NCBI GenBank assembly: GCA_003557385.1
Contig: PWON01000196.1
Coordinates: 1-64,000, forward strand
Direction of reading: 5' to 3'
Source: Bacteroidales bacterium
GTDB lineage: Bacteria > Bacteroidota > Bacteroidia > Bacteroidales > UBA7960
DNA length: 64,000 nucleotides
Part shown: in pieces, positions 47,654-61,340 of the stretch
Position numbering within the stretch: the stretch's first letter is position 1
How the letters are laid out: every line of letters starts with the position of its first letter
Program-made: the position numbers and the translations under genes
Notes under the pieces: generated by a model
Databases searched by the model: none
Told to the model about the DNA's origin: nothing
Seen by the model: the letters and a program-made list of their open reading frames with translations, nothing else

Positions 47654-48811
47654 ATGCTGGCTATCCCAAAACATATCAAAGGAGACCGGACCATCTGGGT
47701 GGTGGTGTTCTTTTTATACATCGTTTCCATTCTTGCGGTTTACAGTTCCACAGGAACCCTGGCCTACCGTTTCAGGGCCGGGAACACCGAATACTATCTG
47801 ATCAAACATTTGGTCATCACTGCTTTTGGGCTTGGCTTGATGTTTCTGGCACATCAAATAAGGTACACCTATTATTCCAGAGTCTCGCAACTGGCACTGT
47901 TTGTGGCCATCCCCCTGCTGTTATTCACCCTGGTGAAGGGTACAAGCATTCATGAGGCCCAACGCTGGATCACGTTGCCCATTGTAAATCTCAGTTTCCA
48001 GAGTTCCGATTTTGCCAAACTGGCCCTCATCATGTATCTGGCCAGAATGCTGACCCGCAAGCAGAGAGTGATCAAAGACCTGCATCAATCATTCATTCCA
48101 ATGGTGCTGCCTGTTGTGCTGGTTTGCGGCCTGATACTCCCGGCCAACTTCTCGACCGCAGCCATTCTGTTTATCAGTTGCATTGTCCTGATGTTTATTG
48201 GCCGTGTCAAAACAGGTCATATCATGGCATTGACCGGGATAGCTATTGCCGGGGCAGCCATTTTTATAACCATATTGACTGTGATGCCGGAAAGTGGCAG
48301 GGTCCGCACCTGGCAAAGCAGGGTAAACACCTACCTTGACAAAGAAAACAGCGATACATACCAGGCGGACCAGGCAAAAATTGCCATCGCCAGCGGAGGC
48401 ATTGTCGGAAAACTTCCAGGCAACTCCACCCAGCGGAATTTCCTGCCACAGGCATACTCCGACTTTATTTATGCCATCATCATAGAGGAATATGGTTTGA
48501 CCGGAGGCTTCCTGATCTTGTTGTTTTACCTGATATTATTATACCGTGGGATCAGGATTGCGCACAAAAGCCCCGGCACATACGGTGCATTGCTGGCCGT
48601 TGGATTGAGTTTCAGCCTTGTGTTCCAAGCCATTATTAACATGGCTGTGGCGGTAAACCTATTGCCTGTTACCGGCCAGCCTTTGCCACTTGTTAGCATG
48701 GGGGGTACATCCCTTTGGTTTACAAGCCTGGCCATTGGCATTATTTTAAGTGTAAGCAGATCCATTGAACAAAAAGAAACGGTGCATGACAACACCTATA
48801 CGAACGGATAG
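47654..48811 (+). CDS. ftsW: Cell division protein FtsW (SEDS glycosyltransferase)
   Basis: 385 aa; polytopic; SDFIYAIIIEEYGLTGG, LPLVSMGGTSL. Confidence 0.95.
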   Translation: MLAIPKHIKGDRTIWVVVFFLYIVSILAVYSSTGTLAYRFRAGNTEYYLIKHLVITAFGLGLMFLAHQIRYTYYSRVSQLALFVAIPLLLFTLVKGTSIHEAQRWITLPIVNLSFQSSDFAKLALIMYLARMLTRKQRVIKDLHQSFIPMVLPVVLVCGLILPANFSTAAILFISCIVLMFIGRVKTGHIMALTGIAIAGAAIFITILTVMPESGRVRTWQSRVNTYLDKENSDTYQADQAKIAIASGGIVGKLPGNSTQRNFLPQAYSDFIYAIIIEEYGLTGGFLILLFYLILLYRGIRIAHKSPGTYGALLAVGLSFSLVFQAIINMAVAVNLLPVTGQPLPLVSMGGTSLWFTSLAIGIILSVSRSIEQKETVHDNTYTNG

Positions 48812-49913
48812 GCCGCTCAGGGCCATTATTGCCGGAGGAGGTACGGGAGGGCATGTCTTTCCGGCCATTGCCATTGCACTGGCCTTGAAGAAGAAGACAA
48901 CTCATGCCCGGATTCTTTTTGTGGGGGCTAAAGGCCGTATGGAAATGCAAAAAGTACCCAAGGCAGGATTTCATATCATCGGCTTGGATATAGCCGGGTT
49001 ACAGCGCCGCTTCAGCTGGCAGAATTTTCTGTTGCCCTGGAAAATCGTTAAAAGCCTGGCAGGAGCAAGACAGATTGTCAGACGGTTTAAACCGGACATT
49101 GTGATTGGCGTGGGCGGATACGCCAGTGGGCCGGTGCTTTGGGCGGCTGCCAGACTAAAGATCCCCATCGTGATACAGGAACAGAATTCTTTTCCCGGAA
49201 TCACCAACAGGATGTTTGGCAAAAAGGCTGACAAGATCTGTGTGGCCTATGAAGGAATGGATAAATTTTTCCCAAAGCAGAAACTGTTCCTGACAGGTAA
49301 CCCTGTAAGGAATGACGTGGTAAATACAGCAGGCAAAAAGAAAAAAGCACTGAAACATTTTGGCATGTCCTCCGAATATCCCGTGTTGTTCGTCACAGGT
49401 GGAAGCCTTGGTGCTCGAACCATCAACGAAAGTGTAAAAACCCACATCAATCTGCTGGCGAAAAAAAACATACAACTGATCTGGCAGACAGGGACCGCAT
49501 TTTACCAGGAAGCCCTGGCATCGGTTCCGCGAAAGTCAAGGAACTTCAGGGCCCATATCAGTGCTTTCATAGACCGGATGGATTATGCTTATGCAGCCGC
49601 CGACCTGGTGGTAAGCCGTGCCGGTGCCATTGCCGTGTCGGAGATATGCACGGTGGGCAAACCTGCCATACTCATCCCCTCTCCGAATGTGGCCGAGGAC
49701 CACCAAACAAAGAATGCCATGGCTTTGGTCAACCATCATGCGGCCGTTTTAATCAGGGATGATGAAGCACAAGAAAAACTCGGGCCGGAGGCAAGCCGGC
49801 TCATATTTGACGAAAATAAAAAACAACGCCTGAGGGAGAAAATAGCAGGCATGTCGTACCGGAATGCCGCGGAGGTGATTGCGGAAAGTGTTTTAGAGGT
49901 AATTAGTAGATAG
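48786..49913 (+). CDS. murG: UDP-N-acetylglucosamine-N-acetylmuramyl-(pentapeptide) transferase
   Basis: AIIAGGGTGGHVFPAIAIA, SRAGAIAVSEICTVGKPAILIPSP; overlaps the ftsW end. Confidence 0.96.
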   Translation: MTTPIRTDRPLRAIIAGGGTGGHVFPAIAIALALKKKTTHARILFVGAKGRMEMQKVPKAGFHIIGLDIAGLQRRFSWQNFLLPWKIVKSLAGARQIVRRFKPDIVIGVGGYASGPVLWAAARLKIPIVIQEQNSFPGITNRMFGKKADKICVAYEGMDKFFPKQKLFLTGNPVRNDVVNTAGKKKKALKHFGMSSEYPVLFVTGGSLGARTINESVKTHINLLAKKNIQLIWQTGTAFYQEALASVPRKSRNFRAHISAFIDRMDYAYAAADLVVSRAGAIAVSEICTVGKPAILIPSPNVAEDHQTKNAMALVNHHAAVLIRDDEAQEKLGPEASRLIFDENKKQRLREKIAGMSYRNAAEVIAESVLEVISR

Positions 49914-49956
49914 TATTAAGTATTTAGTAATTAGTATTTGGTTTTTAGTAGTTAAT
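49901..49956 (+). repeat. Heptanucleotide-period degenerate repeat array A (8 units)
   Basis: aattagt agatagt attaagt atttagt aattagt atttggt ttttagt agttaat; ends 11 nt before the murC ATG. Confidence 0.8.
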
Positions 49957-49967
49957 TTTAACGAAAA

Positions 49968-51338
49968 ATGTGCATGAAGGGTATTGATCATATAACAAAC
50001 ATGTATTTCCTGGGGATCGGGGGCATCGGAATGAGTGCGCTTGCCCGGTATTTCTATACCCGGGGGGTGCATGTGAGTGGTTATGACAAGACACCCTCGG
50101 CAATGACCCGTGCCCTTCAGTCGGAAGGCATCGTGGTAAGCCATTCGGACGACCCGGCCTGTCTTGCCTCAGAACCGGAACTGGTGGTTCGCACCCCAGC
50201 TGTGCCGACCAGTACAAAACTATACAGGCATTTTCAGAAACACGGGGTTCCCATGATGAAACGGGCCGAAGTTCTGGGCAATCTGTCGGCATCCTTGCCT
50301 ACCATTGCGATTGCAGGCACCCACGGCAAAACAACCATCAGTGCCATGCTCACACATATCCTAAAAACCGCAGGCATCCCGTGCATCGCTTTCCTGGGAG
50401 GCATCAGCACCAATTACAACACCAACTATATCGGGGAACCCAACCCTCATTGGCTGGTGGCCGAAGCGGATGAGTACGACCGCTCATTTTTGCATTTATC
50501 GCCTCAGCTGGCGTTAATCACTGCCATCGACCCCGACCACCTGGATGTTTATGGCAACAAAGAGGGCCTGCTGGAGTCCTTCTCGATTTTTGCAAAGCGC
50601 CTGCCTCCAGGAGGCACCCTGATCACCGGAAAAGGCATTGAGGGCATGATATTTCATCAAGGCAAACAATTACAATATCATCCGGAAGCACCGGCCGACT
50701 ACTACATGGGGAAGATCGCTGTGCACGAAGGGATTTATCATACAAGTTTCCATGGAAAACTGGAGATTGGACATGTGCGCAGCGGACATCCCGGCCGCCA
50801 TAACCTGGAAAACGCATTGGCGGCAGCTGCACTGGCCCACCAGGCAGGTGTGCCGGCCTACGCCATAAAAAGTGCACTCAAAAGCTTCCGGGGTGTCAAA
50901 CGCAGATTTGAAATATGCCTGCAAACAGAAGACACTATTTATATAGATGATTACGCCCACCATCCCGAAGAGATCAGCAGATGCATCGCTTCGGCCCGGG
51001 AGATGTGGCCCGGGAAAAAGATCACAGGTGTGTTTCAGCCGCACCTGTATTCCAGGACCAAAGACCTTGCCGGAGATTTTGCAGAAAGCCTGGCACAACT
51101 GGACGAACTCATTTTACTCGACATATACCCTGCCCGCGAAACCCCGATTGAAGGGGTTGATGCCCATATGCTGCTCAAAAAAATCAACATGGACCATGCC
51201 GCCTATTGCCCGCGCAACGAACTGCTTGACCGGTTAAATGCAAGGGAAACGGAGGTTTTGATCAGCATGGGGGCAGGAGACATTGACCGTTTTGCCGAAC
51301 CAATCACGCAACTGTTAAAAAACAAGGCGCTCAAATGA
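49968..51338 (+). CDS. murC: UDP-N-acetylmuramate-L-alanine ligase
   Basis: 456 aa; YFLGIGGIGMSALARYF, IAGTHGKTTISAML. Confidence 0.96.
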   Translation: MCMKGIDHITNMYFLGIGGIGMSALARYFYTRGVHVSGYDKTPSAMTRALQSEGIVVSHSDDPACLASEPELVVRTPAVPTSTKLYRHFQKHGVPMMKRAEVLGNLSASLPTIAIAGTHGKTTISAMLTHILKTAGIPCIAFLGGISTNYNTNYIGEPNPHWLVAEADEYDRSFLHLSPQLALITAIDPDHLDVYGNKEGLLESFSIFAKRLPPGGTLITGKGIEGMIFHQGKQLQYHPEAPADYYMGKIAVHEGIYHTSFHGKLEIGHVRSGHPGRHNLENALAAAALAHQAGVPAYAIKSALKSFRGVKRRFEICLQTEDTIYIDDYAHHPEEISRCIASAREMWPGKKITGVFQPHLYSRTKDLAGDFAESLAQLDELILLDIYPARETPIEGVDAHMLLKKINMDHAAYCPRNELLDRLNARETEVLISMGAGDIDRFAEPITQLLKNKALK

Positions 51339-57691: not shown

Positions 57692-59737
57692 ATGCGTAAA
57701 TTTACTATGATCACCGCCCTGATCTGGCTAATACTTCCTGTTACAAAAGCCAGCGATGTAATGACCACCCACAACATCTTTGACTTAAAAACGGTGGTTG
57801 AAGTTTCCATGTCGCCCGATGAGCGATACATTGCCTTCACAGTAAATGTACCCCGGCCATTCACCCATTCTGCCGGTACCGATTACCGGGAACTTTATGT
57901 CTATGACCTGGAAACCGGTGAAATCATCCCTTTTATGACTGGTAACCGCCAGATCTTCAGTTTGGGATGGACTCCTGCAGGGGATGCCGTTACGTTCCGT
58001 GCAAATTTGCCCGACATTCCGTACGTTCAGGTATACGCCATGAGCCTCCGTGGGGGAGAACCGCGTCCACTTACCGAACATACTGCCAGCGTGTTGGATT
58101 ATGCTTTCATGGATGATGAAACCCTGGCCTTTGTGTCCATGGGCCAAAGGGATCCCATGCTCCAGGAATTTCGCAGCAAGGGGATTGAGATTGAGGTGTA
58201 CGAAGAAGAATGGGTTCACCGCAACCTCTATGTGTACAAAATGAATACCGGTGAACTCAGGCAAGTCACCGAAGGGGTAACCGTCTTTGATTTTGTCCTG
58301 AGCCCGGATGGCCGCCATGCTGCTGCAGCCATTGCACCCCGGAACCTGGTGGACGACAGTTATATGTTTAAGCGCATCCACCTGGTTGACCTGCAAACCG
58401 GCGCCATTGACATGATCATGGAAAATCCCGGCAAACTGGCCAACATGGCTTTTAGCCCAGACGGAAGCAAACTGGCTTTCCGTGCGGCAAGCAAACTGGA
58501 AGATTCTGTGGAAGGAAGTCTTTTTGTCATTGACCTGGATTCCCTTGTGACATTTGAGGAACTCCGGAACTATGCCGAAGGGCTGGAATTATCAGTAATA
58601 GACTTTGCATGGAAAAACGACAGCACGCTGCTGTTTGCAGCCGAAGAAAGTGTGGACATTGTGTTGAGCCAGCAAAAACTCGATGAAGAAGAGCGGTCCA
58701 TATTGATTGAAGCCGGTCATGTGGTATTCCGCAGATTCCATTACAACGACGGCAAGGTGATCTTTTCGGGAAACACCTGGGAACATCCCAATGAACTTTA
58801 TGTATACGACCTGGATGGTGACCTGCTATTGCGCCAGACCGATCACAACCCATGGCTGTCAGATGTCCGGTTGGCCCAACAGCGCAAATTGACCTATTAC
58901 GCACGCGACGGACACGACATCGAAGGCGTTTTACTCTATCCCATTGATTATGATGAAGAAAAGACTTATCCCCTGATCGTTTACATACATGGCGGTCCGG
59001 AAGCAGCCGTTCAGAATGGATGGGTTACCGGTTACGGTACCTGGGGACAGGTTGCCGCGGCCCGCGGTTATTTTTTATTCATGCCCAACTACCGTGCAAG
59101 CTCAGGCCGGGGGGTTGATTTCACCATGGCTGGTTATGGCGACCTTGTCGGCGTGGAATACGATGACGTCATTGACGGCATTGACCATCTCATAGAAACC
59201 GGCTATGTTGATATTGACAGGGTTGGTATCGGCGGGGGGTCTTACGGAGGATATTTTTCGGCCTGGTCGGCAACACGCCACACCGACAGGTTTGCCGCAT
59301 CGGTGATGTTTGTCGGAATTTCCAACCAGATATCCAAACGCAATACCACCGACATTCCATGGGAGGATTATTACGTGCACTGGGGTTACTGGACCTACGA
59401 AGACTGGGAGGATGTATACAGCCGCAGCCCGGTCAAGTATGCCCACCAAAGCCTTACCCCCACCCTGATCCTGCACGGTGATGCCGACCCGCGTGTGCAT
59501 CCATCGCAAAGCCTCGAGATGTACAGGGCATTGAAATTACACGGATGTGCGCCCGTCCGGCTGATCTGGTATCAGGGCGAAGGCCACGGCAACCGGCGAA
59601 ATGTGCACCGGCTTGATTATATTGTACGTACCATGGAGTGGTTCGATTATTTTCTTAACCTGGAAAACCCGCGGGATCAGATGCCGGAGAAGTATCCGGA
59701 GGCGGTGTTGCAGAAAGAAGAAGGAAGAAGTAATTAG
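57692..59737 (+). CDS. S9-family prolyl oligopeptidase/acylaminoacyl-peptidase
   Basis: 681 aa; signal peptide, propeller, GGGSYGGYFSAW, LHGDADPRVHPSQS. Confidence 0.93.
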   Translation: MRKFTMITALIWLILPVTKASDVMTTHNIFDLKTVVEVSMSPDERYIAFTVNVPRPFTHSAGTDYRELYVYDLETGEIIPFMTGNRQIFSLGWTPAGDAVTFRANLPDIPYVQVYAMSLRGGEPRPLTEHTASVLDYAFMDDETLAFVSMGQRDPMLQEFRSKGIEIEVYEEEWVHRNLYVYKMNTGELRQVTEGVTVFDFVLSPDGRHAAAAIAPRNLVDDSYMFKRIHLVDLQTGAIDMIMENPGKLANMAFSPDGSKLAFRAASKLEDSVEGSLFVIDLDSLVTFEELRNYAEGLELSVIDFAWKNDSTLLFAAEESVDIVLSQQKLDEEERSILIEAGHVVFRRFHYNDGKVIFSGNTWEHPNELYVYDLDGDLLLRQTDHNPWLSDVRLAQQRKLTYYARDGHDIEGVLLYPIDYDEEKTYPLIVYIHGGPEAAVQNGWVTGYGTWGQVAAARGYFLFMPNYRASSGRGVDFTMAGYGDLVGVEYDDVIDGIDHLIETGYVDIDRVGIGGGSYGGYFSAWSATRHTDRFAASVMFVGISNQISKRNTTDIPWEDYYVHWGYWTYEDWEDVYSRSPVKYAHQSLTPTLILHGDADPRVHPSQSLEMYRALKLHGCAPVRLIWYQGEGHGNRRNVHRLDYIVRTMEWFDYFLNLENPRDQMPEKYPEAVLQKEEGRSN

Positions 59738-59787
59738 TAAGAAGTAATTAGTAATTAGTATTATATAAATAGTTATTAGTAGATAAT
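59718..59787 (+). repeat. Heptanucleotide-period degenerate repeat array B (10 units)
   Basis: aagaagg aagaagt aattagt aagaagt aattagt aattagt attatat aaatagt tattagt agataat; ends 8 nt before the next ATG. Confidence 0.8.
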
Positions 59788-59795
59788 TTGTGTTT

Positions 59796-61340
59796 ATGGC
59801 TGTTTCGAAATTAAAGAGGTTTTCCAGGAAGGTTTTTGGGAAATCACTAGACTATATTGAAATCGTGGGCAACCGCCTTCCGCATCCGGCCACAATTTTT
59901 GCATTGCTGGCCGGTATCGTGATCCTGATCTCCACCATCAGTTACTGGCTTGGGGTATCGGCGGTTCATCCCGTGGATGGCGAGGTGATTCACGTCAAAA
60001 ACCTGTTAAGCGCAGACGGCATCCGGTGGATATATACCAATATCCTCCACAATTTCCTTCGTTTTCCCCCACTGGGTTATGTGCTGGTGGTCATGGTGGG
60101 CATCGGGTTGGCCGAAGGCACTGGCCTTTTTGCCATCATGATCCGGGCACTGGTACTGGGAGCTCCACCCAAGCTCATTACAGGGGCCGTTGTGCTGGCA
60201 GGCATTATTTCGGGACTGGCCGTTGAGGCAGGCTATGTTATCCTGATTCCATTGGGTGCCATGATCTTCCATGGCATTGGCCGGCACCCCATGGCGGGAC
60301 TTGCTGCTGCGTTTTGTGGCGTAAGCGGGGGATTTGGTGCCAACTTCTTTATCGGTTCCATTGATCCGATCCTGGCCGGTATTTCCACTTCGGCAGCACA
60401 ACTCATCATTCCCGACATGGTTGTAAATCCGGCCGTGAATTATTACTTCATGATCGCGTCAAGTTTTGTGGTATTGCTTGTCGGGGTTTGGGTAACCGAA
60501 CGGGTTGTAGAACCCAGGCTCGGCAAATATGAAGGCTCCACCGAACGATTTGCCATTGAACAATTGACCGCACGCGAAAAAAAGGGGCTTCGATGGGCCG
60601 GCATTTCAGCCATTGCCTTCTTGATTTTGCTTGCGCTGACTGTTGTACCAGGCAATGGCCTGTTGCGCAATCCTGAAACGGGTTCCGTGTTGCATTCCCC
60701 GTTTTTCGACGGCATCATCATCGGCATTATGCTGTTCTTTTTTATTCCCGCCCTGGTGTACGGATACATTGTTGGCACCATCCGGAACGACAAGGACATG
60801 ATGAAGCACATCATCAAGTCGATGAGTGGCATGGGTTCATACATCGTGCTTGTATTCTTTGCGGCACAATTCGTTTATTTCTTCAATGAGTCGAACCTTG
60901 GCCTGATCATTGCCATCAAGGGGGCAGCCGGCCTGCGCGACATTGGTTTTACCGGCCCGGTGCTGATCGCTTCCTTTGTGCTGCTGTCGGCATTTATCAA
61001 CCTGTTTATGGGCAGTGCCTCGGCCAAATGGGCCATCATCGCACCGGTCTTTATTCCCATGCTGATGCTGCTCGACAATGCCTACCACCCGGGCATCACA
61101 CAGGCCGCATTCCGCATTGGCGACAGCCTCACCAACCTGGTCACCCCGATGATGAGTTATTTTGCCCTGATTGTAACTTTTGCACAGAAATACGATGAGC
61201 GCTATGGCATTGGCACCATTATTTCGACCATGCTTCCCTATACGGTATTTCTGGCTATTGTATGGATCGCAACCCTGATGTTGTGGGTCTGGCTGGGCAT
61301 CCCGCTGGGGCCCGACGGACCTATTTATATCAATGGGTAG
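59796..61340 (+). CDS. AbgT-family transporter
   Basis: Polytopic; VGNRLPHPATIFALLAGIVIL, NLFMGSASAKWAIIAPVFIPMLM; ORF also opens with GTG at 59790. Confidence 0.9.
   Translation: MAVSKLKRFSRKVFGKSLDYIEIVGNRLPHPATIFALLAGIVILISTISYWLGVSAVHPVDGEVIHVKNLLSADGIRWIYTNILHNFLRFPPLGYVLVVMVGIGLAEGTGLFAIMIRALVLGAPPKLITGAVVLAGIISGLAVEAGYVILIPLGAMIFHGIGRHPMAGLAAAFCGVSGGFGANFFIGSIDPILAGISTSAAQLIIPDMVVNPAVNYYFMIASSFVVLLVGVWVTERVVEPRLGKYEGSTERFAIEQLTAREKKGLRWAGISAIAFLILLALTVVPGNGLLRNPETGSVLHSPFFDGIIIGIMLFFFIPALVYGYIVGTIRNDKDMMKHIIKSMSGMGSYIVLVFFAAQFVYFFNESNLGLIIAIKGAAGLRDIGFTGPVLIASFVLLSAFINLFMGSASAKWAIIAPVFIPMLMLLDNAYHPGITQAAFRIGDSLTNLVTPMMSYFALIVTFAQKYDERYGIGTIISTMLPYTVFLAIVWIATLMLWVWLGIPLGPDGPIYING

Follow-up and report, generated by a model that had tools for sequence, protein, structure and literature searches.

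Cyanobacteria are known for STRRs, degenerate tandem repeats of 7 bp scattered through intergenic DNA, whose usual description, to our knowledge, includes no single polarity anchored at stop codons. REP elements, which are dispersed short palindromic hairpins, lie directly after stop codons. Among other heptamers, the GGGAATC repeats of Xanthomonas and the GGGGA(T/C)T repeats of Nostoc contain G-runs and form G4 structures, and those of Xanthomonas are located on the sense strand, proximal to stop codons (PMC4692102). In marine Beggiatoaceae, 169 sets of the stop-containing direct repeat TAACTGA are spread genome-wide in a strand-oriented manner, mostly pointing at, and ending beside, start codons, and the repeat recurs patchily over phyla, cyanobacteria and Bacteroidetes included (PMC4679880). 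Such families raise the question of why 7-bp tandem repeats spread in some bacterial genomes and do so only between genes.

The window, i.e., the whole stretch of DNA that was analyzed, comprises 64,000 nucleotides of a Bacteroidales bacterium (contig PWON01000196.1) whose 2.13-Mb assembly we call G000. Its relevant features are as follows.

48786 to 49913, forward strand: murG, whose final codons and TAG stop are contributed by Array A.
49899 to 49956, forward strand: Array A, about eight units of 7 bp with the consensus AATTAGT (mRNA-sense TAATTAG), from within which the murG stop codon comes.
49957 to 49973, forward strand: the rest of the murG-murC spacer up to the likelier murC ATG at 49974 (11 nt with the ATG at 49968).
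49974 to 51338, forward strand, from that probable start: murC (Mur ligase), 3′ of Array A.
57692 to 59737, forward strand: a gene of the S9 (prolyl oligopeptidase) family, which terminates in the second array; its orthologue in the genome G013 terminates without an array.
59729 to 59785, forward strand: another array of this family, headed by GGAAGA; the S9 peptidase gene takes its stop from it.
59796 to 61340, forward strand: an AbgT-family transporter gene, 3′ of the second array.

The eight 7-mers that the original prediction had read from position 49901 are exactly present and end at 49956, but the period-7 signal begins 2 nt earlier, at 49899, and TAG is found in five of the eight units, not in all as had been implied. 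Tandem Repeats Finder (TRF) reported 8.0 copies of period 7 at 49899 to 49954 and scored a period of 21 higher. The identity of Array A to itself at lag 7 was 0.61, with further peaks at lags 14 and 21, and none of 2,000 dinucleotide shuffles reached this value (mean, 0.35; maximum, 0.60). Array A is thus a real repeat and not a product of chance. As predicted, the MurG protein ends in ...VLEVISR*, with the TAG at 49911 to 49913 inside the array. The predicted distance of 11 nt to the murC start holds for the earliest in-frame ATG, at 49968; it becomes 17 nt for the second ATG, at 49974, which is probably the start codon because MurC proteins of congeners align from it. At the junction there was no Rfam match and no hairpin in the array, and a search for intrinsic terminators (a GC stem-loop with a T-run) gave two hits, both upstream, inside murG. 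The second array, which TRF also detected, lies between the S9 peptidase and AbgT transporter genes and begins at the stop codon.

The original prediction was to stand or fall by a genome-wide excess over chance, and the excess is large. A two-unit pattern allowing up to two mismatches had 235 matches in the whole of G000, compared with 5 for the reversed control. We then scored arrays, with a cutoff of at least 28, in samples of about 646 kb of G000 (the window included) and 306 kb of the sister species, G018, with genes called by a custom hexamer ORF model. Many of the sampled contigs had been picked because they contained matches, which biases densities upward but leaves orientations unbiased. 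There were at least 40 arrays in the G000 sample and 24 in the G018 sample; the reversed sequences yielded none, their top scores being 25 (G000) and 24 (G018). The commonest units were AATTAGT (162), ATTTAGT (49), and AGTTAGT (43). Position 2 of the unit was A, G, or T and never C, and C was nearly absent from the units altogether; at their variable T positions, T-to-C changes were scarcer than T-to-A or T-to-G, although transitions should favor C.

The arrays show a consistent position and polarity. When an array was assigned to a gene end lying within 50 nt, all 60 assignable arrays (36 in G000 and 24 in G018) ran in the sense direction of the upstream gene, which bears out the predicted strand bias, and they began between about 20 nt before and about 20 nt after the stop codon, with a single exception at +44 in G018. 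The four unassigned arrays of G000 were at contig edges or adjoined uncalled genes. The stop codon was TAG in 47 of the 60 array genes, compared with about 15% elsewhere, and was often supplied by the array itself. A GAAGA or GGAAG head preceded the first unit in 29 of 63 arrays, whereas about 6% of gene ends in the control set had one. The following start codon lay anywhere from 0 to more than 120 nt away, and arrays were also found between convergent genes with no start codon near; the arrays are therefore anchored to the upstream stop codon and not to the downstream start, and the claim that Array A sits exactly between stop and start does not describe the family. The same genome-wide distribution removes the suggested link to the dcw operon: the murG-murC junction is not a special site for heptamer arrays. 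Each gene of a convergent pair may bear its own array, the two being opposed, so that polarity tracks transcription and not replication. Polarity and stop anchoring together speak for some process or function linked to gene ends and not for random repeat growth. Predicted RNA folding was weaker at the arrays of G000 (median, −12.5 versus −18.5 kcal/mol per 100 nt), and promoter-like TANNTTTG was scarcer in array spacers than in control spacers (6/37 versus 62/165; P = 0.013), which weakly hints that the arrays occupy intra-operon junctions.

G018 is very probably PXAA01, "Bacteroidales bacterium T3Sed10_192R1," a soda-lake MAG; the sample label T3Sed10 belongs to a study of Kulunda soda-lake sediments (PMC6146748). 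It was the only array-loaded genome among 20 congeners examined, the other 19 having no arrays, the murG-murC junction included, where their spacers are ordinary. In G018, this junction carries an array at the same place as Array A. Among 92 reciprocal-best gene pairs of G000 and G018, an array followed both genes in 10 pairs, one gene in 1 pair, and neither in 81 (Fisher P = 1.5e-12), with about 35% of same-amino-acid third positions differing between the two species. No arrays were found at those orthologues of array genes that could be found in G013. Unit number and order differ between G000 and G018, a variation between relatives that had been anticipated, and the units remain close to the consensus; the sites are therefore inherited, and the units maintained or homogenized. 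Within arrays, the central units are the purest and the 3′ units decay. The suggestion of a decaying mobile repeat accordingly fits the 3′ units only, as central units are near perfect and sites are conserved between the sister species. In both species, MurG takes its C terminus and stop codon from the array (window 49890 to 49913; L158), and MurG of array-free congeners has its own tail and its own stop. We also noticed an array with a conserved 3′ flank (ATTTATTACTTGTTGGnCGTTGGTTACACAGGTGT) common to both species (L061 1747 to 1835; L206 18688 to 18776, i.e., G000:C107 58688 to 58776).

Around the arrays, the coding (sense) strand is depleted of C and enriched in G, a shift that other gene ends lack. 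Toward the array, the upstream gene end shows a fall in the C fraction of NNY codons from 0.47-0.49 to 0.15 and a rise in the G fraction of NNR codons from 0.38 to 0.75. The same synonymous trend is present at the start of the downstream gene and absent at array-free ends; it fades over 30 to 50 codons and reaches about 100 nt into both neighboring genes. GC skew was 0.30 in array flanks, compared with 0.03 for control ends (P = 6e-23), and array flanks had twice as many G-runs. Compared with G013 orthologues, and with small numbers throughout, A-to-G changes at fourfold sites amounted to 0.52 near arrays and 0.20 far from them, and G-to-A changes to 0.06 and 0.14, respectively. G was gained from C as well at fourfold sites, so deamination alone is an insufficient explanation. 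Synonymous divergence between G000 and G018 was not raised near arrays (0.32 versus 0.37), which argues against these zones having been mutational hot spots since the sister species split, and we discarded that idea.

Array A is therefore one copy of a lineage-specific, sense-polar (TAATTAG)n family at gene 3′ ends, often headed by GGAAGA. The likeness to cyanobacterial STRRs noted in the original prediction holds for the format, degenerate 7-bp tandem units at many dispersed intergenic sites, but not for the host, which is a Bacteroidales bacterium, as is its sister MAG, or for the STRR unit sequences, the unit here being AATTAGT. REP elements are likewise dispersed short repeats just past stops, but only they are palindromic hairpins. 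Like the Xanthomonas and Nostoc heptamers, which occupy sense-strand positions no more than 50 bp from a stop, all 60 assignable arrays are sense and stop proximal. However, the Xanthomonas and Nostoc heptamers also occur antisense upstream of ORFs, whereas the TAATTAG arrays are stop anchored without exception among those assignable; moreover, the former are G-rich with quadruplex-capable G-runs, whereas AATTAGT has a single G and the arrays are AT-rich within a synonymously C-depleted, G-enriched zone. TAACTGA (PMC4679880) and TAATTAG are both genome-wide, strand-oriented heptamers of the stop-N-stop type. The TAACTGA unit is not that of G000 and G018, whose commonest unit is AATTAGT, and TAACTGA arrays end a few nucleotides from the downstream start, unlike the TAATTAG arrays with their upstream-stop anchor. 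The composition skew present around TAATTAG arrays is not known to be described for TAACTGA. The family thus shares features with the Xanthomonas and Beggiatoaceae heptamers, the nearest described ones, and lacks a defining feature of each; the skew zone and the exceptionless polarity among assignable arrays are new relative to both.

The same heptamer or a related one has been amplified in other phyla as well. An exact four-unit pattern occurred in many phyla among the matches listed, and several of the 14 such genomes that were counted held dozens to more than 150 matches. Across 299 Bacteroidota genomes, a three-unit pattern matched 110 times in G000, 28 times in the next-highest genome, and not at all in 275. 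Pooled across phyla, AATTAGT arrays favor stops, with 52 sense and 42 antisense near them; AATTAGT arrays are therefore not sense as a general rule, and sense polarity holds only within some genomes. Arrays were 16 sense to 0 antisense in UBA1219, 8:1 in Prevotella, and 10:3 in Terriglobales, and the Ignavibacteria genome CoA_1_bin.73 (G062) had 0 sense and 10 antisense (2:13 with a cruder gene call). Polarity thus tends to be fixed within a genome, the single-genome case being convincing only for UBA1219 and Ignavibacteria. In the latter, the coding strand reads TAATTAC at gene ends, the opposite polarity (L058, L071, L072, L075, L088, L112, L121, L126, and L148). None of these four groups of array genomes had a clear codon skew, so skew is unnecessary for polarity. 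The GGAAGA head was not enriched in the arrays of other genomes either, and we rejected it as a general array feature. In a Prevotella MAG, CAMNII (L354 to L363), the arrays lie inside a longer dispersed repeat ending in ...AATTATGATTAGCCCTGCCGGACTG, whereas those of G000 are bare. Another Bacteroidota genome, G246, was loaded with TGATTAA, the heptamer in reverse, at 139 exact-pattern matches; its arrays often formed facing pairs about 130 to 180 nt apart (L368 to L397), which may represent an element with inverted array arms. Where assignable, these were sense at stops (22:0) by a loose detection that returned 47 runs from the reversed sequence as well, so that we trust the exact-pattern excess alone.

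Sense polarity, the stop anchor, the C-poor, purine-rich RNA, and the coding-strand footprint fit a transcription process at gene ends. We tentatively favor the possibility that such a process makes and keeps the arrays, with an R-loop-like version as the leading guess. Just past the stop codon, where the ribosome would already be gone, the nascent RNA, C-poor, weakly folded, and with a purine-rich head, could re-hybridize to the template and leave the non-template strand exposed. AT-rich heptamers on the exposed strand might then expand and homogenize through slippage or recombination, and that strand, unlike the protected template, would drift to G and T. The repeats also place a stop codon in each of the three frames and yield a C-poor, weakly folded intercistronic RNA, possible reasons why gene ends tolerate or favor them. 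Against the established position, polarity, site conservation, unit turnover, and local G-over-C skew of the arrays, we infer the hybrid formation, the slippage on the exposed strand, and any benefit. Several candidate causes were set aside. RNase HII and UDG were found in both G000 and G018, which speaks against a loss of R-loop or uracil repair (RNase HI is patchy across the genus and uninformative); Rho was likewise found in both, ruling out its loss; and spread by reverse transcriptase was rejected, as RVT_1 was present in G000 and none was found in G018.

A possible but on balance doubtful alternative is that the array RNA, in 3′-UTRs or between cistrons, is a regulatory or processing site recognized by a protein or nuclease, and that array gene ends form a post-transcriptional regulon. 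It would account for sense polarity, stop anchoring, conserved sites, and units that stay near constant while copy number shifts; the C-poor, weakly folded surroundings would leave the array accessible, and the same role was proposed for TAACTGA by MacGregor 2015 (PMC4679880). However, a skew reaching about 100 nt into neighboring genes exceeds the needs of a binding site, and the RRM proteins considered as candidates (Musashi-like UAG binders) were not found in G000 or G018, whose genomes are 74 to 80% complete. Rather improbable is a selfish or neutral repeat, in which one seed with its GGAAGA head spread between gene ends by slippage and recombination, orientation being retained through head or stop homology of donor and target and selection merely removing copies elsewhere. 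The common head, the unit turnover with 3′ decay, and the 19 congeners without arrays agree with such a spread, but the 10:1 conservation of sites despite the third-position difference does not, and neutral spread alone predicts no synonymous skew in adjoining codons. It is quite unlikely that the arrays serve as translational insulators, in which a period of 7 with TAA and TAG would place stops in every frame and catch read-through or frameshifted ribosomes. Many genes do take their actual stop from the array, with TAG in strong excess, and TAATTAG, TGATTAA, and TAACTGA are, on inspection, all stop-N-stop heptamers; yet an antisense array would also have stops in every frame, which leaves the strand polarity unexplained, the arrays of G062 run in the opposite polarity, and the skew is not accounted for. 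Accidental periodicity, to which a short, AT-rich spacer might be prone, is refuted by the shuffles and the 235-to-5 excess and is next to impossible.

Repeat amplification coupled to transcription at gene 3′ ends might arise repeatedly in unrelated bacteria, with stop-containing heptamers, one polarity per genome, and a non-template synonymous footprint in one lineage, a generalization that we regard as speculative and improbable as it stands. With two sister species, an array-free closest outgroup, the anchoring, the polarity, and the codon footprint, the origin, spread, and function of the arrays are directly testable. The arrays also alter protein C termini, such as that of MurG, and are thus relevant to annotation. 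The findings suggest that gene ends have a mutational or regulatory regime of their own.
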